Source: Mediterranea massiliensis
Lineage (GTDB): Bacteria > Bacteroidota > Bacteroidia > Bacteroidales > Bacteroidaceae
NCBI GenBank assembly: GCA_015060685.1
Contig: SUXZ01000008.1
Span: forward strand, 48,864 to 112,863
DNA length: 64,000 nt
Direction of reading: 5' to 3'
Of this stretch, positions 40,507 to 53,273 are shown in pieces; within the stretch, counting starts at the first letter, position 1; the number at the start of each line of letters is the position of its first letter. Made by a program: the position numbers and the translations under genes. Below the pieces are notes generated by a model that saw only the letters and a list, made by a program, of their open reading frames with translations, was not told the DNA's origin and did no database searches.

Positions 40507-42168
40507 ATGACAACATCTACTAAAGTACAATCGACATTGCGCGATTCGGCCGCTTTGCGGTGGACAGCCTTGCTATTGTTGGCAATGGCTATGTTTTTTG
40601 CCTATATCTTTATGGACATTCTCTCTCCCATTAAAGATTTGATGCAATCTACTCGTGGTTGGGACTCAACAGCGTTCGGTACGATGCAGGGTTCCGAAAC
40701 CTTTCTGAATGTATTTGTATTCTTCCTGATTTTTGCCGGTATCATCCTCGACAAGATGGGCGTGCGCTTCACAGCCCTTCTTTCGGGCGTGGTAATGCTT
40801 GTAGGTGCCGCCATCAACTGGTATGCAGTGACCGAGGCATTCATGGGCAGCAGCCTGGAAACATGGTTCACCAACAACCTGAACTACATCCCCGGTTTCG
40901 ACGAGTTGGGCATCTCGCCCTTCTACTTGGGCATGCCGGCTTCGGCCAAGTTTGCCGCCGTGGGCTTTATGATATTCGGTTGTGGTGTCGAGATGGCCGG
41001 TATCACCGTCAGCCGTGGCATTGTGAAGTGGTTTAAAGGCCGCGAGATGGCCCTTGCAATGGGTTCCGAGATGGCCCTTGCCCGTTTGGGTGTGGCCACC
41101 TGTATGATCTTCTCGCCCATGTTTGCCCGTCTGGGTGGTGTGATAGATGTTTCCCGTTCGGTAGCTTTCGGTTTGGTGCTGCTCATGGTAGCCCTCATCA
41201 TGTTCATCGTCTATTTCTTCATGGACAAGAAGCTCGATGCGCAGACCGGTGAAGCCGAAGAGAAGGACGACCCGTTCAAGATCAGCGACTTGGGACAAAT
41301 CCTCACCAGCAGCGGTTTCTGGTTGGTAGCCCTGCTTTGCGTACTCTACTACTCGGCCATCTTCCCCTTCCAGAAGTATGCCGTTAACATGTTGCAGTGC
41401 AACCTTACCTTCACCGAGTTGTCGGCCGATTCGTTCTGGGCCACCAATACCGTTACCATTATCCAATACATCATCATGTTGGTAGTGGCAGCCGCCTCGT
41501 TCACCAGCAACTTCTGCAAGAACAAGCCGATGAAGTATGGTTTGCTGCTTGTGGCCGTAGTTGCTTTGGTCACCTTCTGCTACATGGGCTACATGCGTCA
41601 AAGTGCCGAAACCGTCTTTGCCGTCTTCCCCTTGTTGGCTGTGGGTATCACCCCAATCCTGGGTAATTACGTCGATCATAAGGGCAAGGCCGCATCCATG
41701 TTGGTACTCGGCTCGTTGTTGCTCATTGCCTGTCACCTGACGTTTGCCTTCATCCTCCCGTTGTTCCAGGGCAATGCCGTTGGCGGCGTGGTTGTTGCCT
41801 ACCTCACCATCCTTGTGCTTGGAGCCAGCTTCTCGTTGGTACCCGCTTCGTTGTGGCCCAGTGTGCCCAAGTTGGTCGATGCCAAGATTATCGGTAGTGC
41901 CTATGCATTGATATTCTGGATACAGAACATCGGCTTGTGGCTCTTCCCGATGCTTATCGGTAAGGTGCTCGATAAGACCAATCCTCAATTGGTGGAAGAT
42001 TTGAAGAATGGCGTTATCACTCCCGAACAGGCAGCCGTTTCTTACGACTATACCGCTCCGCTGGTCATGCTTGCCGGTTTGGGCGTAGCCGCCCTGCTTC
42101 TTGGCTTGCTGTTGAAAGTTGTTGACAAGAAGAAAGGCTTGGGATTGGAAGAACCCAACATTAAATAA
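40507..42168 (+). CDS. Major facilitator superfamily transporter
   Basis: A 553-residue inner-membrane protein with about 12 membrane helices, in two bundles of six separated by a charged loop (FMDKKLDAQTGEAEEKDDPF, about 230-250). I begin at ATG 40507 because the frame before it runs through the secG terminator. The motif LDKMGVRFTALLSG between helices 2 and 3 is a typical MFS loop. The family pattern suggests an anion or organic-acid carrier, but I cannot name the substrate. Confidence 0.9.
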   Translation: MTTSTKVQSTLRDSAALRWTALLLLAMAMFFAYIFMDILSPIKDLMQSTRGWDSTAFGTMQGSETFLNVFVFFLIFAGIILDKMGVRFTALLSGVVMLVGAAINWYAVTEAFMGSSLETWFTNNLNYIPGFDELGISPFYLGMPASAKFAAVGFMIFGCGVEMAGITVSRGIVKWFKGREMALAMGSEMALARLGVATCMIFSPMFARLGGVIDVSRSVAFGLVLLMVALIMFIVYFFMDKKLDAQTGEAEEKDDPFKISDLGQILTSSGFWLVALLCVLYYSAIFPFQKYAVNMLQCNLTFTELSADSFWATNTVTIIQYIIMLVVAAASFTSNFCKNKPMKYGLLLVAVVALVTFCYMGYMRQSAETVFAVFPLLAVGITPILGNYVDHKGKAASMLVLGSLLLIACHLTFAFILPLFQGNAVGGVVVAYLTILVLGASFSLVPASLWPSVPKLVDAKIIGSAYALIFWIQNIGLWLFPMLIGKVLDKTNPQLVEDLKNGVITPEQAAVSYDYTAPLVMLAGLGVAALLLGLLLKVVDKKKGLGLEEPNIK

Positions 42169-42180
42169 GGAATAACCATC

Positions 42181-42217
42181 GTGCCGAAAAGCGACGTTTC
42201 CGCGTCGTTTTCGGCAC
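42181..42217 (+). terminator. Long hairpin after the MFS gene
   Basis: Arms GTGCCGAAAAGCGACG and CGTCGTTTTCGGCAC (one bulged G) around a short loop, 12 bp after the MFS stop. It lacks a good T run but is the first strong structure downstream. Confidence 0.65.
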
Positions 42218-42256
42218 GTTGCAGCAGCCTTCCGAAAAGGTTAAACCTGCTGCCCC

Positions 42257-42318
42257 AAAACATTAAACCTTTTTGCCCAAAAGGTTAAACCTAATAGGCA
42301 AGAAGGTTTAATGTTTTT
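42257..42318. repeat. 21-bp inverted repeat with T tail, TTAAACCT motif
   Basis: Left arm 42257-42277 (core ACATTAAACCTTTTTGCC) pairs with right arm 42297-42318 (core GGCAAGAAGGTTTAATGT) with one mismatch and about 19 nt of loop. The loop holds a further GGTTAAACC. The right arm ends in eight T residues, so it may be a terminator. The AGGTTTAA/TTAAACCT word also occurs just upstream at 42239. Confidence 0.7.
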
Positions 42319-42367
42319 TTTATGCCCTTTCCACCCCTTTTCCCAGCCATTTACACCTTATTATATA

Positions 42368-42390
42368 ATACGCGCACGCGCGTGCGCGCG
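42368..42390. other. Alternating purine-pyrimidine tract with 18-bp palindrome
   Basis: A 23-bp run with strict purine/pyrimidine alternation, nearly all CG and CA/TG steps. It contains the perfect palindrome CGCGCACGCGCGTGCGCG (42371-42388). Such a tract can adopt Z-DNA under negative supercoiling. It is very different in composition from the A/T-rich flanks. Confidence 0.7.
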
Positions 42391-42410
42391 AGGGGCGAAT
42401 CCTTGCTTCC

Positions 42411-42558
42411 GGAATCACGCGTGATTTACGCCGGATTCACGAACAATTGTTACCGAAATCACGCGCGATTTTCACCGACTTTGCGCACACTTTCTGAGAA
42501 AATCACGAACAAATCCGGCGACAAATACGCGCAAATCCGGCGCAATTTGCGCGTGATT
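42411..42558. repeat. AATCACG palindrome cluster
   Basis: Palindromes AATCACGCGTGATT (42413-42426, perfect) and AATCACGCGCGATT (42457-42470, one mismatch) alternate with GATTCACGAACAATTG-like and AATCACGAACAAATCC segments, the word AATCCGGCG (twice), and a CGCGCAAAT/ATTTGCGCG hairpin (42528-42553). No open frame is supportable here. Function unknown. Confidence 0.7.
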
Positions 42559-42608
42559 TTGGTGGCAGCATTTTAAGCCGTTTCCAAAGTATTAATACTT
42601 CACGTCCG

Positions 42609-42735
42609 AAGTATTTGTTCGTCAGCCGTAAAGTGTTTGTTCGTCAGGAATGAACTACCTATTCACAAATATAGCTTCGTGTGTTCATGAAGCTATATCT
42701 GTGAATCTACGAAGCTATATTTGTGGGCCTATGAA
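42609..42735. repeat. Two 22-bp-period repeats and a GAAGCTATAT hairpin
   Basis: AAGTATTTGTTCGTCAG (42609-42625) recurs as AAGTGTTTGTTCGTCAG (42631-42647), a 22-bp period. Then ATTCACAAATATAGCTTC (42661-42678) forms a hairpin with GAAGCTATATCTGTGAAT (42689-42706), one mismatch. The right arm recurs at 42711-42726 and partly near 42733, again 22 bp apart. This lies directly upstream of the ThiF-like promoter. Confidence 0.7.
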
Positions 42736-42751
42736 GCTACTAATGCAAATT

Positions 42752-42796
42752 CACACTTTTGTGTCACAGCATTTTGGAATACATATTCTACCTTTG
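42752..42796 (+). promoter_or_regulatory. Regulated promoter of the ThiF-like gene: CACAC-N4-GTGTC box plus -7
   Basis: The inverted repeat CACAC-TTTT-GTGTC (42752-42765) is centred at 42758.5. The -7 box TACCTTTG (42789-42796) is centred at 42792.5, 34 bp downstream. The ATG is 65.5 bp from the box centre. The same geometry occurs before two nearby genes. Confidence 0.75.
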
Positions 42797-42823
42797 TGGC
42801 GTTGAATTAAAATTTATTAGTAG

Positions 42824-43606
42824 ATGGAAGAAAGGTATATCCGTAATCGAATTTACCTCACGGAAGAGGAGCAAGAGAAAATCAAGCATGTGCGCATACT
42901 GTTGGGCGGTGCAGGTATTGGTAGTATCATTGCCGAGTGTGCTTTGCGCTTTGGCTTCGAAAGTATCACCATTGTCGATGGCGACCGTGTAGAGCGTAGC
43001 AACTTGAACAGACAGAATTACACCAATGGTGAAGTAGGTAAGTTCAAGGCAGAATCTCTTGCAAAGCGATTGTTGCGCATCAACCCCAAAGCGGATATTC
43101 GTTATCATAATACATTTATCGACCATGATAATGTTCGCGAATTGATAGAGGGCCATCAAATAGCAATCAATGCCTTAGACTTTAAGAGCGACATTCCGTT
43201 TGTGTTCGACCAAATATGCAAGGAACAAAACATTCCCGTGCTTCATCCCTATAATTTCGGTTGGGCCGGTTTCTTGACTATCGTTAAGCCGGATGGATAT
43301 CCCTTATCCGAATTGAACCCCAATCCCAAGAATTTCGAGTTGGAGATGGCACAATATGTTTCCCGATATGGACAATTCTGGAACATGCCTATAGCATGGT
43401 TGGATAAAGTTGTTACCTCTTATCGAAAAGACGGACTGGCACTTCCTCCTCCCCAGCTTGCTATAGCATCCTGGATTGCGGCTGCCTTTTGTGTAAACGC
43501 AATGTTTAATCTTGCCACCGGCCGCAAGGTGAAGTACTTCCCAAAATTCTTCTTCTCGTCGTTGATGAGCGAGAACGAGGATTATAACGGTGACTTCAAC
43601 TCATAG
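42824..43606 (+). CDS. ThiF/E1-like adenylyltransferase
   Basis: A 260-residue E1-superfamily protein. It has a Rossmann nucleotide site GGAGIGS (about residues 28-34), the acidic and arginine signature DGDRVERSNLNRQNY (about 52-66) and a helix GKFKAESLAKRLLRINP. These fit enzymes that adenylate a C-terminal carboxylate of a small protein or another acid. It lacks the paired CxxC zinc motifs of ThiF/MoeB and has no sulfur-carrier or ubiquitin-like partner nearby. It is convergent with, and overlaps by 6 bp, the LuxR-type regulator. The shared promoter box suggests control with the acyltransferase gene. Confidence 0.85.
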   Translation: MEERYIRNRIYLTEEEQEKIKHVRILLGGAGIGSIIAECALRFGFESITIVDGDRVERSNLNRQNYTNGEVGKFKAESLAKRLLRINPKADIRYHNTFIDHDNVRELIEGHQIAINALDFKSDIPFVFDQICKEQNIPVLHPYNFGWAGFLTIVKPDGYPLSELNPNPKNFELEMAQYVSRYGQFWNMPIAWLDKVVTSYRKDGLALPPPQLAIASWIAAAFCVNAMFNLATGRKVKYFPKFFFSSLMSENEDYNGDFNS

Positions 43607-44362
43607 GAGTTTGTAATTGGTGGCATAGGACAAAGCCTCGGTAATGCTCTTTACTTCCAATTTGGCAAAGAGGCGTTTCTTGTAGGTTTTGATTGTGTCG
43701 ATCGATTTGCACAGTTTGTCTGCAATGTCGTTCATAGTATATCCTTGCGAAGAGAGTCGCAGGATGTCACGTTCAACTTCAGTCAACACCATCGCTTCTT
43801 TCTTAGTCCATTTGTGAGTTTCCAAGGAGTATTCATAGAACCAACTTTCATCACCTTTCTTCATAACGATGTGTCCGGGTGTGTTTCTTGCCGACAAAGA
43901 TACAGTACATAATGCCAACCATATTCGTCCGTCTCTTGTCATTAACAGCGGAGTAAGGTTGTGGTTAATCAACCTTTTCTTCTTGCCGTTTATGAAATGG
44001 AAGTCGTAAGAAATGGTATATTGCACCCTTTCTTCGGGCGGAATGGTATTTGCCAATTGAAATCCGGCTTTATTAATCTCCAACAACATTTGCTGCTCTT
44101 TTTCGGGTACATGCTTTATGTAAAGGTCGTATCCAAATTCCTTAATTTTCTCGGCCGGTTCTCCACATAGCAGAGCCAGATTTTCGGAAACATACAGAAA
44201 GTCTTTTCGGAAATAGTCTATGATGTAAACACACTGATAAGTATTACGCGCAAATGCTTTAGCGGTATTGATTAGCAATTCCACATTTTCATATTCTTTA
44301 TCAGTGACGTTATACACCGAATTGGCTTCTATAAAGAAATCACCTTTGTTTGCCGCGGTCAT
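43601..44362 (-). CDS. LuxR-type transcriptional regulator with PAS-like sensor domain
   Basis: A 253-residue regulator. I start at the ATG at 44362 because AGGAGGG at 44369-44375 (minus strand) is an unusually strong ribosome site for this phylum; a longer frame to 44479 is unlikely. The N-terminal 110 residues look PAS-like (NTYQCVYIIDYFRKDFLYVSENLALLCG). The C-terminal 60 residues are a LuxR helix-turn-helix (LTEVERDILRLSSQGYTMN, then DTIKTYKKRLFAKLEVKSI). A minus-strand -7 box TACCTTTG lies at 44404-44411. It is divergent from the acyltransferase and is the obvious candidate to bind the CACAC-N4-GTG boxes. Confidence 0.88.
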   Translation of the reverse strand: MTAANKGDFFIEANSVYNVTDKEYENVELLINTAKAFARNTYQCVYIIDYFRKDFLYVSENLALLCGEPAEKIKEFGYDLYIKHVPEKEQQMLLEINKAGFQLANTIPPEERVQYTISYDFHFINGKKKRLINHNLTPLLMTRDGRIWLALCTVSLSARNTPGHIVMKKGDESWFYEYSLETHKWTKKEAMVLTEVERDILRLSSQGYTMNDIADKLCKSIDTIKTYKKRLFAKLEVKSITEALSYATNYKLL

Positions 44363-44514
44363 AATAAACCCTCCTGCTGTTTTTATAATAGAATTATTTT
44401 CAGCAAAGGTAGTGTGTAGCTTTCTAATAAACAAGTTTTTATGCAAAATAATGAAGTAATATTGTATTATACCTTTCAAATATTATAATTTGCATGGTTT
44501 GCAATTGAAATTAA

Positions 44515-44598
44515 CACACAATAGTGTGAATATTCTTGCGTGTGTTTATCTATCACACTTTTGTGTCATAACAATCAATCAGACTCCTAATAATTTTG
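44515..44598 (+). promoter_or_regulatory. Regulated promoter of the acyltransferase gene: two boxes plus -7
   Basis: Distal box CACAC-AATA-GTGTG (44515-44528, perfect inverted repeat) and proximal box CACAC-TTTT-GTGTC (44554-44567) have centres 39 bp apart. The -7 box TAATTTTG (44591-44598) is centred 34 bp after the proximal box. No -33 TTTG is seen, consistent with an activator-dependent promoter. Confidence 0.78.
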
Positions 44599-44625
44599 TT
44601 TACAGTAACTTAAAAGAACAAAATT

Positions 44626-45252
44626 ATGGAAAAATTAATTTATCAAAATCAGCATTATTCAATTTGGGAAAGTAAGAACGAGAACCTTTATGAGTTGGCA
44701 AAATTTATTGTTTATGAAAATTACAAGCATCACACTGGAAGTTTCTCTGAATCTGAAATGTGCAATGAAATAGAGCTTGTTTATCAAGAGGAGCTCTCAT
44801 ATTCGGAAAATTCTATCATTTACTTGGTACGAAATAAACATGATAAAATTATTGGTTCCATCCGTGTCTTTCAGTGGAATCGAAAACAAATGTTGCCTAT
44901 TCAAAGAATTTTTAATATTAATCCGTTGATACAGATTCATTCAGAGAAGCAGTATAATTATTGGCACATAGGACGTTTTGCTATCGATTCTTTTAGTGGC
45001 ATATCTACACTTTCGCTTTTTAAACAATTGATGGTTTATGCTATTCATCCCATAATAAAGACGGAGTATAGCTATATGATTGCAGAAACAGATAGTAAGT
45101 TGCTTAAGGTAATGAACGCCTTAGGTATAAAAACGGTTCAATTGGGAGATTCGGTCAATTATTTGGCTTCGGAAACAATACCCATCTGCTCCAGTCGAGA
45201 GGGACTTGAGTCTTTTTATAATAAGTATAAAAACTTCTGTTTGGCTTCGTAA
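44626..45252 (+). CDS. LuxI/FeeM-like N-acyltransferase (GNAT fold)
   Basis: A 208-residue protein with no signal or membrane segment. IYLVRNKHDKIIGSIRVFQ (about 65-83) and YWHIGRFAIDS (about 112-122) align by eye with the two conserved arginine motifs of autoinducer synthases (GxxRL and ELSRFAVD) and FeeM-type N-acyl amino acid synthases. YMIAETDSKLLKVMNALGIK (about 147-166) fits the last helix of that fold. The glutamate before SRF is replaced by histidine. It could join an acyl chain from acyl-ACP to an amine or amino acid. Base composition is A/T-rich. Product unknown. Confidence 0.7.
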   Translation: MEKLIYQNQHYSIWESKNENLYELAKFIVYENYKHHTGSFSESEMCNEIELVYQEELSYSENSIIYLVRNKHDKIIGSIRVFQWNRKQMLPIQRIFNINPLIQIHSEKQYNYWHIGRFAIDSFSGISTLSLFKQLMVYAIHPIIKTEYSYMIAETDSKLLKVMNALGIKTVQLGDSVNYLASETIPICSSREGLESFYNKYKNFCLAS

Positions 45253-45267
45253 TACAATAAAAGATTG

Positions 45268-45351
45268 TACACTTTTGGGTGAATTTTATTCTAAGCGATT
45301 CGTTATCACACAAAAGTGGACAAGGGTGAATATATATTAAGAATACTTTTG
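45268..45351 (+). promoter_or_regulatory. Regulated promoter of the transglutaminase-like lipoprotein gene: two boxes plus -7
   Basis: Distal box TACAC-TTTT-GGGTG (45268-45281) and proximal box CACAC-AAAA-GTGGA (45307-45320) are both imperfect but again 39 bp apart. The -7 box TACTTTTG (45344-45351) is centred 34 bp after the proximal box, and the ATG is 66.5 bp from the box centre. Confidence 0.72.
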
Positions 45352-45379
45352 CCATTGAATTTAACTAAATATTTTTGAT

Positions 45380-47320
45380 ATGAGATGTATTTTCCTTTTT
45401 CTATCTCTTCTTATCTTATCTGCTTGCACTCCACGCCCTATAACTCCAACTATAGAGGAAATATTGGAGGTGAATCCCTCACTTCAACAAGTGTTGGATT
45501 ATTGCCAGAATGATTCGCTAAAGTACGAGGCTGCAAAGTTCCTGATAAAGAACTTGCCCTATCATTACGGATATGAGGGAGAGGCACTGACCGACTATAT
45601 GCGCCTGTTCGAACTACACGGACAACATACGCTCTACCCCGAACAGGTGTTGGACTCCATCAAGAAAACATACGGTCCTTTCCGTATGCACGAACTGCGT
45701 GCCGTTAGCGATGTACACATCAGTCCCGAACTACTGATTGAAAACATCGACTGGGCATTCAAGGTGTGGCGTGAACAACCGTGGGGAAAGCATATCTCGT
45801 TCGATGTATTCTGTGAATATATCTTGCCTTATCGGGTAGCCGACGAGAGGTTGGAATCGTGGAGGGAATATGTATATAACAAGTATAATCCGTTGTTGGA
45901 CAGCCTGCGCACCCTGCCCGAAGCCGAAGACCCCATCCATGCAGCACGCATACTGATGGATACACTCCATAAAGGACCGATAAACTTTACCGGTCTGTTC
46001 TCGTTCGGTCCTCACTATGGTTACAAGTCGGTGGACTGGCGTTCGGGCAGTTGCAAGGACTTCACATGTTTGCAACTCTTCGTATTCCGCGCATTGGGTT
46101 TGCCCTGTAGTGAAGAGATTATGCTGATTCGCGGAAACGGTAATGTGGCGCACTATTGGAATGCGGTATTCGACAAAGAAGGGAACAGTTACTATTGTTC
46201 CATCCTTGACCCGACATCGGAATTGAAAGACCCCACCACAATGTGGGACCCGAAAGGAAAGGTCTATCGGGGAACGTTCAGCGTCAACAGGGAGATGATG
46301 CGACAGATGAATCGACCGAAAGAAGAAGTATATCCATCGTTCAGACATCCTTGCATGATAGATGTTACACCAATATATAGTGGCGAAAAGAATTGGCAAA
46401 TACGGATAGAAAAAGAACAACTGTACAACCGTCCCAAGCGTGGGGAACCGCTCTATCTCTGTGTACCTCGCTACATGGAGTGGGAACCGTTGGCATGGAG
46501 CAAATTCAATGGTAGGGAGGTAGTGTTTGATGATGTGGAAGGACAGGTTGTCTTTCGTCTGGCCACTTACGAAGAGGGAGCACTGAAATTACAGAGTGAC
46601 CCTTTCCTGTTGGAACGCGAAACGGGTGAGATACGTTTTTATCCGACAGGCGGCAAGGAGACAGAAGTGAAACTGCTGCATAAGTTTAACCTCTACTTTG
46701 AACCGTTTGTGCGACTGATGAATGGCGGAGTGTTCGAAGGCAGCAACGACCCGCATTTCATAACGAAAGATACATTACACTTAATAGAGTATATGCCGGA
46801 ACGGCTATGGAACGTGACAGGTACGCGAAATAATAAGTCATACCGCTATGTTCGTTTCTATGGTTTGGACGAAAGCCATTGCGACATTGCCGAGGCATCA
46901 TTCTATGAACATGCTTCAGATACCATCCCACTGAAGGGGTGTGTTATAATCAATCCGGGTGGTACACCTATCGACGATGAGCACCATCCGCGCAATGTGT
47001 TCGATGGCGACCCTTACACTTCGTTCAGTCATACCGATGCTTCGGGTGGATGGATAGGTCTTGACTTTGGCCGGCCAAGACAAGTGAAGAAAATCGTCTT
47101 TACAGCTCGTAACCGTGACAACTTCATCCGCACGGACGATGAATATGAACTGTTCTTTGCCGACAAGAATGGATGGCAATCGGCTGGTCGTACATGGCCT
47201 ACTTCAGATTCGTTGCTCTACACTGTTCCCGAAGGAACACTGCTCTACTTAAAAGACCACACACGAGGCAAAGAAGAACGCATCTTTGAATATAGAGAGG
47301 GGAAACAGGAGTTTTGGTAA
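45380..47320 (+). CDS. Transglutaminase-like lipoprotein with discoidin-type C-terminal domain
   Basis: A 646-residue lipoprotein (signal MRCIFLFLSLLILSAC). The middle part has a transglutaminase-type triad pattern: Cys in SGSCKDFTCLQLF (about residue 222), His in NVAHYWNAVFD (about 254), Asp in CSILDPTSE (about 275). The C-terminal part (about 490-640: FDGDPYTSFSHTDASG, WIGLDFGRP, KIVFTARNRDN) is a galactose-binding-like discoidin domain. It may act on surface peptides or glycopeptides. It shares the CACAC-N4-GTG promoter layout with the two genes before it. Confidence 0.85.
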   Translation: MRCIFLFLSLLILSACTPRPITPTIEEILEVNPSLQQVLDYCQNDSLKYEAAKFLIKNLPYHYGYEGEALTDYMRLFELHGQHTLYPEQVLDSIKKTYGPFRMHELRAVSDVHISPELLIENIDWAFKVWREQPWGKHISFDVFCEYILPYRVADERLESWREYVYNKYNPLLDSLRTLPEAEDPIHAARILMDTLHKGPINFTGLFSFGPHYGYKSVDWRSGSCKDFTCLQLFVFRALGLPCSEEIMLIRGNGNVAHYWNAVFDKEGNSYYCSILDPTSELKDPTTMWDPKGKVYRGTFSVNREMMRQMNRPKEEVYPSFRHPCMIDVTPIYSGEKNWQIRIEKEQLYNRPKRGEPLYLCVPRYMEWEPLAWSKFNGREVVFDDVEGQVVFRLATYEEGALKLQSDPFLLERETGEIRFYPTGGKETEVKLLHKFNLYFEPFVRLMNGGVFEGSNDPHFITKDTLHLIEYMPERLWNVTGTRNNKSYRYVRFYGLDESHCDIAEASFYEHASDTIPLKGCVIINPGGTPIDDEHHPRNVFDGDPYTSFSHTDASGGWIGLDFGRPRQVKKIVFTARNRDNFIRTDDEYELFFADKNGWQSAGRTWPTSDSLLYTVPEGTLLYLKDHTRGKEERIFEYREGKQEFW

Positions 47321-47337
47321 TAGATAACATTGCATAG

Positions 47338-48918
47338 ATGAAACTGATTGAAAAAATAATGTTGTTTGTATTGGTAGCAATATCCATATTCTGCCATTCC
47401 GAAAAGATGGTTGATGCCTATATTGTACCAAAATGGTGCTATACACTATCAGCATTGCTATTGATATTAATATACTTATCAATTAAACACCTGATAGTGA
47501 AGCAATACAATCACATTATCAATCTTTTGGATATATCGCGTATTGTTCTATTACTATGTTTAACCTTATCAATCTGGGGTATTTTGCAATATATAGAATG
47601 GTTGCCCTCATTTTCGGCATTTAAAGTCGTGGGCAATTACGATAATCCTGCCGGATTTGCAGCTACATTGTCTATCAGTTTTCCATTAGTGTGGTATCTA
47701 TTGAAGAATACCACCAAACAAGCAGAACGTATTATTGCCTATATTGTAATAGTAGCGATGACAGTAGCCGTTTTGTTGTCTGCTTCACGCGCAGGGATAG
47801 TAACGATTGCTATTTGGTTTGGGATGTTGGCATATGATAAAATAGAATTGCCAAACTACGTAAAAAAAACAGCTTCTGTTCTATTGGCCATTGCATTGTT
47901 TGTAGTAGTTTATGCATTAAAGAAAGATTCCGCCGATGGCAGATTGTTGATTTGGCGATGTGCACTGGAAATGATTTCTGATTCTCCATATGTAGGCTAT
48001 GGTTGGGGAGGTTTTAAAGCAAATTACATGGATTATCAAGCTTGTTATTTCGAGCAAAACCCGAATAGTCCGTATGCCATGTTGGCAGACAATGTACAAT
48101 CTCCTTTCAATGAATACTTAAATGTCTTGATTAATTGGGGGGTAATAGGTTTTCTGATTATCGCAAGCGGCTTTGTGTATTTATTCTATATTCATCACAA
48201 GCATCCTACAAGTAAATCAAAAGTCGCTATTACATCAATCATTACCATTGCAGTATTTTCATTGTTTTCTTATCCGTTTACATATCCTTATCCGTGGTTG
48301 ATATTGATTATTTCCATTGCAGTTATCATTAACGAATGTGTCAAGATAAATGTGTCGCATGGCAAATTAGCAACACTATTCTGCTTAACCATACTATTTG
48401 CATCATCTATATTACTTCATGAGGTAGTGACTCGGATAGAAGCTGAGTATAAATGGAAGTCCATTCTTTATCGTAATGACGATTATGCACTGAAAGCGTA
48501 TAAAGAATTAAATCAAGAACTCGGTTCCGATCCCTATTTCCTTTATAGTTATGCTGTAAACCTATATCAACAGGGTTGTATTGATGCAAGCCTTGAGGTG
48601 GCTAATGCGTGTGATAAATATTGGGCTGATTACGACTTACAACTGCTATTGGGGACTATCTATCATGACAAGTTGATGTATGATGATGCCATACATCATT
48701 ATAAGAGAGCCGCTTTGATGTGCCCGAATCGTTTCATTCCCTTGGAAAAACTGATGGATGTGTATATGACATGTGGAAAAAGAAGCGATTGCTATCAAAT
48801 AGCTCTGACCATATTGGAAAAGCCTGTAAAAGTGCCTTCCATCAATATTCAGATAATTAAGAGAAAAGCAAAAGGGATAATAAACCAAATGTTGAACGAA
48901 AAAGATACGATTATGTAA
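47338..48918 (+). CDS. O-antigen-ligase-like (Wzy/WaaL) membrane protein with TPR tail
   Basis: A 526-residue protein. About ten membrane helices fill residues 1-365. The large periplasmic loop carries the Wzy_C/O-antigen-ligase signature (RLLIWRCALEMISDSPYVGYGWGGF, about 200-224) and a preceding SASRAG motif. The last 150 residues are soluble and TPR-like (YLYSYAVNLYQQG, AIHHYKRAALMCP). Such proteins transfer a lipid-linked glycan to LPS or protein, but no glycosyltransferase cluster is nearby. It starts 17 bp after the lipoprotein gene, probably in its operon. A/T-rich compared with the core genes. Confidence 0.85.
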   Translation: MKLIEKIMLFVLVAISIFCHSEKMVDAYIVPKWCYTLSALLLILIYLSIKHLIVKQYNHIINLLDISRIVLLLCLTLSIWGILQYIEWLPSFSAFKVVGNYDNPAGFAATLSISFPLVWYLLKNTTKQAERIIAYIVIVAMTVAVLLSASRAGIVTIAIWFGMLAYDKIELPNYVKKTASVLLAIALFVVVYALKKDSADGRLLIWRCALEMISDSPYVGYGWGGFKANYMDYQACYFEQNPNSPYAMLADNVQSPFNEYLNVLINWGVIGFLIIASGFVYLFYIHHKHPTSKSKVAITSIITIAVFSLFSYPFTYPYPWLILIISIAVIINECVKINVSHGKLATLFCLTILFASSILLHEVVTRIEAEYKWKSILYRNDDYALKAYKELNQELGSDPYFLYSYAVNLYQQGCIDASLEVANACDKYWADYDLQLLLGTIYHDKLMYDDAIHHYKRAALMCPNRFIPLEKLMDVYMTCGKRSDCYQIALTILEKPVKVPSINIQIIKRKAKGIINQMLNEKDTIM

Positions 48919-49029
48919 ACAGATTAAGTATAGGAAGGATTAAGGCTGTGGGTCCAAGATTGGCAAGGGGCTGATACCTATGAGAAATGATAGAACACAG
49001 TTTAAGTAAATATATAAATTATAAAAATC

Positions 49030-49731
49030 ATGAGAAATTTGTTATTTTTAATAATAATGATGTTTATTGTTTCATGTGAAAATTCTATAGTCAATTTTGG
49101 AAGAGAAGACACATTGCAAGAAATTATGGATGAAATCCAAACAAGAAATATGGATTATGAAGAATATGTTCATCCCCTTTTAGAAGGGCATTATGTTGAC
49201 TTTGTAAATAATCAATATGAAGTTACAATATCGAAAAATGAGGCTATTGAAATCGGTATTTCTGCGGACAGTTATGATGAGTTTTTAGAATTGGTATCTA
49301 AGACGAATAATTTGATACAAGAAACCATTGACGAATGTGTCGAAACATCTGATACTGTAATCGTAGTTTCTAATTTATATGACAATCCAAATAACTATGT
49401 AAATTTATCCATAGCAAAAACACGTGCAGAACCGACTAATACTATGCCTTTTGGTACAATTCAAACTAATGGACAAGAGGAAGGTATGAATCCGATGACT
49501 CTTCCACGCAGTATGAAGTTTGTTGTATGTGATTGTTATGCCAGAGCAGCCCTTGCTGCTGGTCATGTCGTTACAACGAAAGTTTTTGGAGGGACTATGG
49601 TTGGTACAGGTATTGGGCAGCACATAGATATAAAAGTAGGTGTAAGTGCTTCCGGCACTGTTGGAGGAATATATTATAAAACCACTGATAGTAATGGAGG
49701 TGTATGCGCATGGCAAGGAAGTGAGAATTAA
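49030..49731 (+). CDS. Lipoprotein of unknown function
   Basis: A 233-residue lipoprotein (signal MRNLLFLIIMMFIVSC, lipobox IVSC). The N-terminal half is acidic and helical (LQEIMDEIQTRNMDYEEYVHP). The C-terminal 70 residues are Gly/Ala/Val-rich with cysteines (VCDCYARAALAAGHVVTTKV, then a final CAWQGSEN). I do not recognise a family. Base composition is A/T-rich like its neighbours, suggesting a recently acquired block. Confidence 0.65.
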   Translation: MRNLLFLIIMMFIVSCENSIVNFGREDTLQEIMDEIQTRNMDYEEYVHPLLEGHYVDFVNNQYEVTISKNEAIEIGISADSYDEFLELVSKTNNLIQETIDECVETSDTVIVVSNLYDNPNNYVNLSIAKTRAEPTNTMPFGTIQTNGQEEGMNPMTLPRSMKFVVCDCYARAALAAGHVVTTKVFGGTMVGTGIGQHIDIKVGVSASGTVGGIYYKTTDSNGGVCAWQGSEN

Positions 49732-49796
49732 TATTTGACCCTTTACTGTTTGAATATTAAATTTTACTTTACACATAATTTTAAATCTCAGAGTCT

Positions 49797-50210
49797 ATGA
49801 AATTAATAGTTGAGAAAATCAGCATGATACTTTTAGTTAGTATCTTGGTTACTCTTGTTAGTTGTTGGAATAATAATACCACTATAACTGATAAAAAGTA
49901 TAAAGAACTATTGAATGAATCAATTTTGCTCATTCCTGATTCATTGCTGAACGAAGAACAGGCTGCATTGAAAACTAAACTTGTGGATTTGATTTATAAG
50001 GAAGTTGAAGTGGTAGATAATAACCTTGTTTTGAAAATTTCGCGCGAAGATTTAGAAAACCAAGGAATACCTTCTTTCTATTATGATATTATCAAATATC
50101 AATTGAAAGAGACTTCCGATACAATGAATAAATGGGTTGATGAGGGTTCGCTTACTCCCGAACAAGCTGATTTAGATTCCTTGTATAGAGAATGGCGAAA
50201 GAAGTTTTAA
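49797..50210 (+). CDS. Small lipoprotein of unknown function
   Basis: A 137-residue lipoprotein (hydrophobic signal ending LVTLVSC at about residue 23). The mature part is helical and charged (DKKYKELLNESILLIPDSLLNEEQAAL). No motif recognised. It follows the previous lipoprotein by 65 bp in the same direction. Confidence 0.62.
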   Translation: MKLIVEKISMILLVSILVTLVSCWNNNTTITDKKYKELLNESILLIPDSLLNEEQAALKTKLVDLIYKEVEVVDNNLVLKISREDLENQGIPSFYYDIIKYQLKETSDTMNKWVDEGSLTPEQADLDSLYREWRKKF

Positions 50211-50316
50211 ATTACTCAATTACTTGATTGATGAAACATTATTATACATGTTTGTCGGGATACTGTTTATAAAAAAAATGTGTATCAGTTAAGTAGGATA
50301 TGGATTAGTATAAATA

Positions 50317-50380
50317 GGGAAATTCCTATTCAAAAGTAGGAATTTCCCTCATCTTGTTAAAACGCTTATTGCTATATTTG
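50317..50380 (+). promoter_or_regulatory. Hairpin and -7 box before the first LRR-like lipoprotein
   Basis: GGGAAATTCCTA (50317-50328) and TAGGAATTTCCC (50337-50348) form a perfect 12-bp stem. A -7 box TATATTTG follows at 50373-50380. The hairpin may end the previous transcript. The block is repeated at 51351-51412 before the second paralogue. Confidence 0.65.
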
Positions 50381-50433: not shown

Positions 50434-51330
50434 ATGAAAAAAACGTTACTATTTTTAAGTATGTTTGCATGGCTATGGGTTGGAATGGCTTGTAGCGGCG
50501 ACGACGATTTGCCACCGATTGAAGAAAAGCAACCGATAAAAAGTTTCTTTATGAATGAAGGGGATAGCTTGGCTCTTGCTGTTTCTTTACGACCTTTTGG
50601 GATTAAAGACTTGGATAAATTTATTGATAGTGAGTGGGAATATGTTATAGACGATATTAAATATCATCAGTATTATTACCAAGGTGTAGTATTTAATACA
50701 CTTTGGGATACAAAAGAAAACATATACCGTTTGTGGCGCATTGCTGTGGAAGAACCTGAGTTGTTGCCCGATGGTTATTTTCTATCTCCTGCGTTGAAAG
50801 ATTTAAAACGTTTAAGTCATCTTGAAATACGTGGTGATGAACGGGCTACCGGCGTAATACCAAAAGAAATATTTGATTGTCCTTTGGTTAGATTGCACAT
50901 TTCAGGCAAGGGATTTACAGGTGCTATACCTAAAGAAATAGCAAAGGTTGCTAATACATTAGTAGCAATTGAAATAGTTAGTACCTCATTAAATTACTTA
51001 CCGGAAGAAATAGGTGAACTGCGGAAAGTAAATGTTCCGTATTTGTGCTATAATGAGTTTCGAGGAACCCCTCCAATGTCTTTACGTAACTTCAGTTCTT
51101 CGGCACAGTGTCAGGACAATTATTTTGATGAAATAGATTGGAATATGTTTTTAGAATTTGATGCAGATAAGTCTGTGGTTACCGGTATTTATTCTGTTCC
51201 ACTGCTTGATGGCAATTGCTTAACAGGAGAAATCCCACAAGAAGTACTCGATTCTGAATATTGGACCTACTTCGCTCAATGTTTAGGACGTCAAAGGGAT
51301 GGATATGGATTCAGTAACTGGTCTAAATAA
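50434..51330 (+). CDS. Leucine-rich-repeat-like lipoprotein, copy 1
   Basis: A 298-residue lipoprotein (signal MKKTLLFLSMFAWLWVGMAC, then an acidic SGDDDLP that favours surface export). The body has LRR-like strands (LSHLEIRGDERATG, GVIPKEIFDCPLVRLHISG, GFTGAIPKEIAK, NCLTGEIPQEVL) with the GxIPxEI pattern. The first 27 residues are identical to those of the next gene; the rest differs widely. A binding role at the cell surface is likely but the ligand is unknown. Confidence 0.75.
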   Translation: MKKTLLFLSMFAWLWVGMACSGDDDLPPIEEKQPIKSFFMNEGDSLALAVSLRPFGIKDLDKFIDSEWEYVIDDIKYHQYYYQGVVFNTLWDTKENIYRLWRIAVEEPELLPDGYFLSPALKDLKRLSHLEIRGDERATGVIPKEIFDCPLVRLHISGKGFTGAIPKEIAKVANTLVAIEIVSTSLNYLPEEIGELRKVNVPYLCYNEFRGTPPMSLRNFSSSAQCQDNYFDEIDWNMFLEFDADKSVVTGIYSVPLLDGNCLTGEIPQEVLDSEYWTYFAQCLGRQRDGYGFSNWSK

Positions 51331-51350
51331 ATAAAAATATTTAAGTAATA

Positions 51351-51412
51351 GGGAAATTCCTATTCAAAAGTAGGAATTTTCCTCATCTTGTAAAAAACTT
51401 ATTGCTATATTT
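51351..51412 (+). promoter_or_regulatory. Second copy of the hairpin/promoter block, with altered -7
   Basis: GGGAAATTCCTA (51351-51362) pairs with TAGGAATTTTCC (51371-51382). The position matching the first copy's TATATTTG reads TATATTTTC, a weaker -7. Sequence identity with the first copy continues into the coding region. Confidence 0.6.
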
Positions 51413-51465
51413 TCAGCATAATACACTACACCCCACCATTATTAACAATTAAAAAAATTACGATT

Positions 51466-52314
51466 ATGAAAAAAACGTTACTATTTTTAAGTATGTTTGC
51501 ATGGCTATGGGTTGGAATGGCTTGTAGCGGCGACGACGACTTGCCGGAAGTGCCTAAAGGACCGGCACGCCCAACAATGAATGTACAAGACAGTTTGGTT
51601 ATGGTGGCCTATTATCATAGTATGAAGTGTGCAGAATGGAAAGAACCCTATCATTGGGATATTACCGACTATACCACTTGGGGCGATGTAACAGCTGCAT
51701 TGGATACAGAAAAGAATGAATATCGCATAGTGAAAATCCGAGTAGGCGATCCGAAATACTTGCCGGCAGGCTATTCATTGCCGACCGAATTGGGTAATCT
51801 GCCTTACTTGACCTGGTTAGAGATATCGGGTGATGAACGCGCCAAGGGTGGTATTCCCAAAGAAATCTTTAATTGTCCGTTGGAGCTATTGTATATTTCA
51901 GGTAAGGGATTTGGTGGAGAAATCCCTAAAGAGATTGGTAATGTAGCCGCAACAATGAAATGGCTATATATAACCGGCACTTCGTGTAATACAATTCCAG
52001 AAGAAATCGCATTATTGCAGAATTTAGGGAGTCGAGCACATTTAGGTGGTAATGAATTTTCTGGAACTCCCCCTCTGTTCTTAAGGGATTTGCCGCATGG
52101 TGTTAATCTTTGGTATAATTATTATACTGAAATGGATTGGCGATTCTTTACCGAGGAGAAAGGTATTGTTCCTGAATTGGATTATAATTGGCTATCTGGA
52201 GAGATTCCGGAAGAGGTGTTTGCTACTGAAAATTGGAAAATTTATGGAATGAGAATACGAAATCAACGTGATGGGTATTGGTTTAGTAATTGGCCTGATG
52301 ATTTTTGGGATTAG
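51466..52314 (+). CDS. Leucine-rich-repeat-like lipoprotein, copy 2
   Basis: A 282-residue paralogue of the preceding gene. The signal and the SGDDDLP motif are identical; the mature part shares the plan (PYLTWLEISGDERAKG, GGIPKEIFNCPLELLYISG, GFGGEIPKEIGN, NWLSGEIPEEVF, RNQRDGYWFSNW) but with many changes. The near-identical 5' end over a diverged body suggests duplication with later exchange of the leader region. Confidence 0.75.
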   Translation: MKKTLLFLSMFAWLWVGMACSGDDDLPEVPKGPARPTMNVQDSLVMVAYYHSMKCAEWKEPYHWDITDYTTWGDVTAALDTEKNEYRIVKIRVGDPKYLPAGYSLPTELGNLPYLTWLEISGDERAKGGIPKEIFNCPLELLYISGKGFGGEIPKEIGNVAATMKWLYITGTSCNTIPEEIALLQNLGSRAHLGGNEFSGTPPLFLRDLPHGVNLWYNYYTEMDWRFFTEEKGIVPELDYNWLSGEIPEEVFATENWKIYGMRIRNQRDGYWFSNWPDDFWD

Positions 52315-52563: not shown

Positions 52564-52962
52564 CTATTCATTAAGCAAATCTTCTACTTTTTGGATAAGT
52601 TCTTTGGCCGGATTAACCATGCTTAAGATTTCATCCTTCGATACAGAAAAGAGACAGTTATAATCGCCTTTTTTCCTTAACTGCTCAATTCTTGATAGGA
52701 ATGCGCCAAGGTTCGATTCTACCTTGCCGGTCTTCACGAAGTGAAGTCCAAATAGAGTTATCAGCCCATCGTGTGTATGACAAGAAATGCCATTTTGAAT
52801 AAATAGGGCCTGTATAGCATGGAAGCAGGCATAATAATACCTGTTCGAAGCAATATCCCAATATTGTTGTTTGCACATTTGGTCTGCTTGCTCCAAAAAC
52901 AGGCGTGCCTTGTTCATTTGTAGCTTTACAACGGTTTTTCGATCGTCTTCATTTAGGCTCAT
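52564..52962 (-). CDS. HEPN-domain protein (toxin of a HEPN/MNT pair)
   Basis: A 132-residue helical protein. The HEPN motif is RYYYACFHAIQALF near residues 42-55 (an R...H pair, RYYYACFH, that in active members forms the RNase site). These proteins act as toxins neutralised by a nucleotidyltransferase partner. The start overlaps the end of the MNT gene by 4 bp, so the order is MNT then HEPN, as is usual for such pairs. Confidence 0.88.
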   Translation of the reverse strand: MSLNEDDRKTVVKLQMNKARLFLEQADQMCKQQYWDIASNRYYYACFHAIQALFIQNGISCHTHDGLITLFGLHFVKTGKVESNLGAFLSRIEQLRKKGDYNCLFSVSKDEILSMVNPAKELIQKVEDLLNE

Positions 52963-53273
52963 AACAATGCTATTGCGTCTTGTTGAACATTGTGATAGAA
53001 AGGAGTTATTTTACTTTCTTCCCATTCCTTGCTCGAATACATGATAGGGTTGATTTGTTCTCCTAAGTCCCAACCAAGTACGGTCAATGGATAGGTGACA
53101 GTGTCATAATCGGTAGGCAGCAATTTATCTTTGTTCAGAACGATAAGAATGTCCCAATCCGACCCTTCGTGTGCATCGCCACGAGCTTGTGAGCCGAAAA
53201 GCCACGCTTTCCCATCGTTAGGAAGATGGTTGATGAGCGTTTGTTTTATGCTTTCTATAACCGATTGTTTCAT
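52959..53273 (-). CDS. MNT-domain nucleotidyltransferase (antitoxin of a HEPN/MNT pair)
   Basis: A 104-residue minimal nucleotidyltransferase. The active-site motif GSQARGDAHEGSDWDILIVL has the expected GSxARG and SDxD elements (about residues 27-46). In characterised pairs MNT adenylylates the HEPN toxin to silence it. The pair lies between two 65-bp direct repeats. Confidence 0.9.
   Translation of the reverse strand: MKQSVIESIKQTLINHLPNDGKAWLFGSQARGDAHEGSDWDILIVLNKDKLLPTDYDTVTYPLTVLGWDLGEQINPIMYSSKEWEESKITPFYHNVQQDAIALL

Follow-up and report, generated by a model that had tools for sequence, protein, structure and literature searches.

Bacteroidota are major gut bacteria, and their small-molecule signalling has long been unclear. 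In Mediterranea massiliensis, a 64,000-nucleotide stretch of DNA (the window; contig SUXZ01000008.1, positions 48,864 to 112,863) carries genes for a LuxR-type regulator, a LuxI/FeeM-like acyltransferase and an E1-like enzyme, an arrangement that an earlier note had interpreted as an acyl-signal regulon. Which signal would such a locus make, and which genes would respond to it? The analysis presented here partly supports the earlier interpretation. The locus is a real instance of a known quorum-sensing system: with high confidence, we assign its genes to the N-acyl-cyclolysine (ACL) type, with a predicted surface operon as the likely output.

Identity of the synthesis and regulator genes

The Nature abstract of Linares-Otoya et al. 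reportedly describes lysine acylation, ATP-dependent cyclization, a regulator named AclR and autoinduction, and the ACL system is said to include an acyltransferase of the FeeM/AHL-synthase fold. AclR is presumably a LuxR-family protein, and the PDB name AclA we take to point to acyl-cyclolysine, a step that a literature search bore out. Three features of the ACL system are present in the window, namely an AclA-type ThiF/E1-like cyclase, an acyltransferase of the FeeM/AHL-synthase fold beside it, and a LuxR-family regulator inside the locus; a co-localised output operon is likewise common to both, as far as a published review and a PDB title describe the ACL system. The cyclase gene (42824..43606, plus strand, 260 amino acids) was assigned to the AclA family from sequence and model: AclA is the nearest solved structure to the E1-like protein, which is 52% identical to AclA of T. 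discolor. The review passage (PMC13419125) omits AclA, and AclA is linked to ACL through its name. That passage credits the discovery of N-acyl-cyclolysines in Bacteroidota to Linares-Otoya et al. (Nature 2025, 646, 423-432) and describes the system as widespread in human gut and oral samples. The earlier suggestion of a new acyl-signal module was dropped, since the nearest solved relative of the cyclase is AclA and the ACL system is named in the same review passage (PMC13419125); the locus is instead related to this published system.

The acyltransferase gene (44626..45252, plus strand) encodes a 208-residue N-acyltransferase of the ACL module. The AHL synthases LasI, RpaI, BjaI and TofI are among the top structural matches of its model, and Pfam FeeM is found in 37 of 42 aligned acyltransferase proteins, in line with the LuxI/FeeM fold proposed earlier. 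A point against this assignment is that the fold margin above general GNATs is about 2 Z units. Between the two synthesis genes, on the minus strand, lies the gene for an AclR-like LuxR-family regulator (43601..44362), for which alignment with relatives favours a start at ATG 44362 (253 amino acids) over TTG 44479, where the open reading frame begins. The earlier description of this protein as a PAS-LuxR regulator holds for its LuxR part, given a GerE domain of 47.7 bits (Pfam) that recurs in all 21 aligned regulators, window included; the PAS part does not hold, with a weak Pfam match in only one of the 21. No Rfam match at gathering score was found within 42100-46000. Between a transporter gene and the cyclase promoter, inverted and direct repeats are nested in one another over about 470 bp (42257-42725).

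When one genome per species was scanned, acyltransferase relatives turned up at 52 loci, in records named Bacteroides fragilis, Prevotella, Segatella, Parabacteroides, Muribaculaceae, Dysgonamonadaceae and others; one record is labelled Eubacteriales. Among the 52 stretches fetched around them, 43 contain a ThiF relative, 46 a LuxR relative and 41 the complete trio; contig ends cut several of the remaining stretches, and some of the Prevotella-named loci are almost identical to one another. The gene trio, whose conservation the earlier note had proposed to check, is conserved. The circuit itself is sparse: it was found in 5 of 121 genomes of the family (its own included, one of them a fragment) and in 11 of 395 genomes of a phylum sample (again with its own, E≤1e-15), for which 10 of the 11 matches outside the own genome were fetched and a second match in G466 was left out. 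At loci of other families, the cyclase lies outside the fetched stretch in five of ten cases; AclA-like genes occur elsewhere in those genomes, three of these distant genes being flagged with a stop inside the matched stretch. At a locus of the same genus (L145, 7728-9823), the cyclase and regulator genes are open and the acyltransferase is only a fragment, possibly representing a listener that has lost signal production. Near-identical circuits occur in three differently named Prevotella-type genomes (L026, L027 and L028), and three loci (L022, L049 and L050) hold a second acyltransferase copy or fragment; these observations suggest recent transfer or duplication. On plasmids, there was no match to the acyltransferase protein and none by DNA; no acyltransferase relative was confirmed on viral contigs, and phage matches to the cyclase amount to three records (30-32% over 42-50% of its length).

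A FeeM-fold acyltransferase and a ThiF-family cyclase are also shared with the TyzABC/OxzAB systems. According to PMC10404671, TyzA is an acyltransferase with a modelled FeeM/AHL-synthase fold, TyzB is a ThiF homologue responsible for ATP-dependent cyclization, and the two yield acyl-oxazolones in M. tuberculosis. By analogy, the product here could be an acyl-oxazolone or another N-acyl amino acid lipid with no signalling role, the LuxR protein being an ordinary pathway regulator. We consider this improbable, since the window lacks an adjoining flavin-dependent oxidase (no such nitroreductase-superfamily domain was found by Pfam in the eight window proteins scanned), carries a regulator and phased boxes, encodes a cyclase nearest to AclA among solved structures (TyzB and OxzB being outside that comparison), and has boxes before both synthesis genes that suggest feedback. 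A LuxI/LuxR acyl-homoserine-lactone circuit gained from proteobacteria would account for the AHL synthases among the top structural matches, and such circuits share with the window the acyltransferase fold, a LuxR-type DNA-binding domain, an operator near -41 and a feedback layout. This origin is nevertheless very improbable, because the window has an extra ThiF-family cyclase (a relative of which occurs in 43 of the 52 fetched loci), the Autoind_synth score of its acyltransferase is 16.7 bits against a cut-off of 24, with matches in only 3 of the 42 aligned proteins, and an autoinducer-binding domain is absent from the 19 Pfam families that a scan of the 21 regulators gave at E≤1, under filters that drop most weak matches. 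N-acyl amino acid chemistry in Bacteroidales is also represented by GlsB and commendamide of Bacteroides; compared through excerpts of published descriptions rather than by sequence, the GlsB glycine lipid synthase differs in being an acyltransferase pair, with no cyclase mentioned in those excerpts.

Operator geometry in the window and in relatives

Operator boxes and -7 cores were located on the plus strand ahead of three genes. Box 1 (CACACTTTTGTGTC, 42752..42765) precedes the cyclase promoter core TACCTTTG (42789..42796), and box 2, with the same letters CACACTTTTGTGTC (44554..44567; sequence and genome scans), precedes the acyltransferase promoter core TAATTTTG (44591..44598). Box 3 (CACACAAAAGTGGA, 45307..45320), which has two mismatches and fits the strict box definition in all but one letter, precedes the output promoter core TACTTTTG (45344..45351). 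The gap from box to core is exactly 23 bp at all three promoters, or 34 bp from centre to centre, and the box centres lie 65.5, 65.5 and 66.5 bp ahead of the ATGs, confirming in the sequence the three-promoter inverted repeat reported earlier. At two of the three promoters, those of the acyltransferase and the output operon, a second box is found exactly 39 bp upstream (CACACAATAGTGTG, 44515..44528, and TACACTTTTGGGTG, 45268..45281, respectively).

Taken without its core, the box shows no enrichment across the window's genome, with 79 matches at ≤1 mismatch versus 75 for a reversed control; because the box without its core is as common as the control, it is the phase rather than the box that constitutes the signal. 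Box and phased core together give two exact matches and one one-mismatch match in the 2.6 Mb genome, all at this locus, and at ≤3 mismatches show no excess (63 versus 69 in the control). The significance of the boxes is therefore to be sought in their phase and in relatives.

For the comparison of relatives, upstream or downstream regions with the same sequence counted as one, and those below a length of 150 to 200 bases were dropped. With the window included, the strict box is found in 32 of 38 distinct cyclase upstream regions and in 38 of 42 distinct acyltransferase upstream regions; in 28 and 31 of these, respectively, TAnnTTTG follows it after exactly 23 bp. The exact phase is missing from the other 10 cyclase and 11 acyltransferase regions, 6 and 4 of which have no strict box. 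Among 200 mononucleotide shuffles per upstream set, the box occurred in at most one region and the exact phase in none. Loss of this spacing in relatives, which the earlier note had named as a refuting outcome, is not seen in most of them. Of the 41 acyltransferase upstream regions, the window's among them, 29 have a pair of boxes 39 or 38 bp apart. Downstream of the acyltransferase, 40 distinct regions remained from 48 after removal of 2 short and 6 duplicate ones; 31 of them contain a box and 26 have it at phase 23 (shuffles, ≤2). The window's own output promoter is not among the 26, since box 3 is one letter short of the strict definition.

The box arms are ACAC/GTGT in 52 of 68 boxes. Both arms read ACCC/GGGT in five, including both boxes of L046 and both of L054, two loci apparently of a single lineage. 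A further 11 are altered in just one arm. As proof of a protein site, joint change of the arms was considered weak, with 5 joint against 11 one-sided changes among the 68 boxes, and an alignment of the regulators inspected by eye gave no clear rule linking recognition helix to box arm. Whole-genome scans of 14 relatives gave 28 exact matches to the pattern of box and core, spread over 11 of the genomes. By manual count, 22 of the 28 are at circuit loci and the rest are elsewhere in those genomes; in G130, two exact matches precede outer-membrane-protein-like genes on other contigs. At ≤2 mismatches, the 14 relatives show no enrichment of box and core (144 versus 155 in the reversed control).

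The geometry is also found outside the family. All ten loci fetched from two other families of the same class, perhaps flavobacterial, have same-phase sites, and the gap is 23 bp in 18 of the 19 sites listed when gaps of 20-26 were allowed, a figure that carries no shuffle control; in L167, the listed site is located away from the acyltransferase promoter. It is hardly credible that an ordinary acetyltransferase and a ThiF enzyme lie beside a LuxR regulator with boxes that are due to chance or belong to another regulator. In favour of this reading, the box alone is unenriched, the exact phase is missing from 10 of the 38 regions before the cyclase and from 11 of the 42 before the acyltransferase, and regulator binding is a prediction. 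Against it, most relatives and two other families keep the phase, and the gene set is conserved.

The regulator gene's own promoter follows a different pattern. In 32 regions, the 23-bp phase was not found once; boxes are commonest 30 or 31 bp before TAnnTTTG (18 box-core pairs), which amounts to a second phase in relatives, and also occur 69-70 bp before it (17 box-core pairs). Since the gap is never 23 bp in these 32 promoters, autoregulation of the regulator by the same geometry is unsupported. For the same reason, the distal box can be read either as completing a tandem site at the synthesis or output promoter or as a differently phased site of the regulator gene.

The predicted output operon

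The third phased promoter precedes a plus-strand operon of four genes (45380-50210). Its first gene (45380..47320), with box 3 ahead of it, encodes a lipoprotein, as judged from its signal sequence, that combines a transglutaminase-like domain with one of F5/8 type C; Pfam scores are 28.4 for F5_F8_type_C (cut-off 28.2) and 17.6 for Transglut_core, which is under its cut-off of 23. The second (47338..48918) encodes an O-antigen-ligase-like membrane protein with a Wzy_C match of 61.6 bits and a weak TPR_1 match at the C-end (18.0, under the cut-off). The third (49030..49731) encodes a rare lipoprotein-like protein of 233 amino acids with three homologues in the protein database and no Pfam match, and the fourth (49797..50210) a small lipoprotein-like protein of 137 amino acids. 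A terminator-like hairpin with a 15-pair stem follows (50316..50349, plus strand; consensus scan only). We predict that this output acts at the cell surface or is secreted, and that the two small lipoprotein-like proteins might be processed or glycosylated by the products of the first two genes.

The same four families, including homologues of the third and fourth genes, follow the acyltransferase in changed order at L014, a sheep-rectum metagenome-assembled genome, and at no other locus among the 52. Six stretches around other relatives of the transglutaminase protein contain no ACL circuit; three of them (L140, L141 and L143) also hold a Wzy_C relative, and in L139 homologues of the third and fourth output genes are paired. 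From these pairings, the window's operon looks as if it was put together from two older pairs. Beyond it lie two tandem lipoprotein genes (50434-52314) with a common N-terminal signal sequence and diverged bodies, the second with an LRR match slightly under cut-off, and a HEPN and nucleotidyltransferase (MNT-like) pair (52564-53273, Pfam) in a toxin-antitoxin-like layout.

Relatives differ from the window in what follows the circuit. Whereas the window has a transglutaminase-like/Wzy_C/lipoprotein operon, 15 of the 40 distinct downstream regions lead to stretches with both radical-SAM and C39-exporter relatives. An exporter is present in 19 of the 40, a radical-SAM enzyme in 16 and an outer-membrane-protein-like gene in 24, three of the regions being without a downstream table. 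Labels come from scanning representatives for protein families (B12-type radical SAM, radical SAM with SPASM, peptidase C39 ABC exporter), and those for outer-membrane and HlyD-like proteins are matches under curated cut-offs. A small peptide with a GG-type leader is encoded within the first 900 bases of 10 of the 40 regions, and the four such peptides tested had no NCBIfam model match at E≤0.01. From their gene content, the radical-SAM/C39-exporter outputs read as modified-peptide clusters. A survey of modified-peptide clusters in Bacteroidales (PMC10352776) does not mention ThiF, LuxR or acyltransferase in its main text.

Proposed circuit and its implications

Signal synthesis is predicted to begin with acylation of L-lysine by the FeeM-fold enzyme, a substrate carried over from AclA. 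The AclA-type E1-like enzyme would then use ATP to close the acyl-lysine to a lactam, so that the product, again by analogy with AclA, would be an ACL. The LuxR-family regulator likely senses this product and likely activates promoters that have a box 23 bp before the TAnnTTTG core. We infer that it binds the box, and binding near -41, the position of a class II activator, would be expected to activate. Boxes ahead of both synthesis genes suggest positive feedback, and the box before the operon at 45380-50210 would make that operon one output.

More tentatively, and with slightly less than even confidence, we propose a phylum-wide ACL cis code, TACAC-N4-GTGTA 23 bp before TAnnTTTG and often doubled 39 bp upstream, together with capture of a surface-protein operon as the output at this locus. 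If this is true, ACL regulons, including unlinked targets, would be readable straight from genome sequence, and in this lineage an unrelated operon for surface-protein assembly would have come under the circuit as its quorum-controlled output. The fixed distance from box to core provides a sequence test for the genes that each circuit may control. A fixed operator geometry that extends beyond one order and an unusual output may add to the known ACL system. The locus adds one more carrier of an ACL circuit among Bacteroidota, and the outputs, radical-SAM/C39-exporter clusters in many relatives and a predicted surface operon here, suggest quorum control over secreted or surface products.
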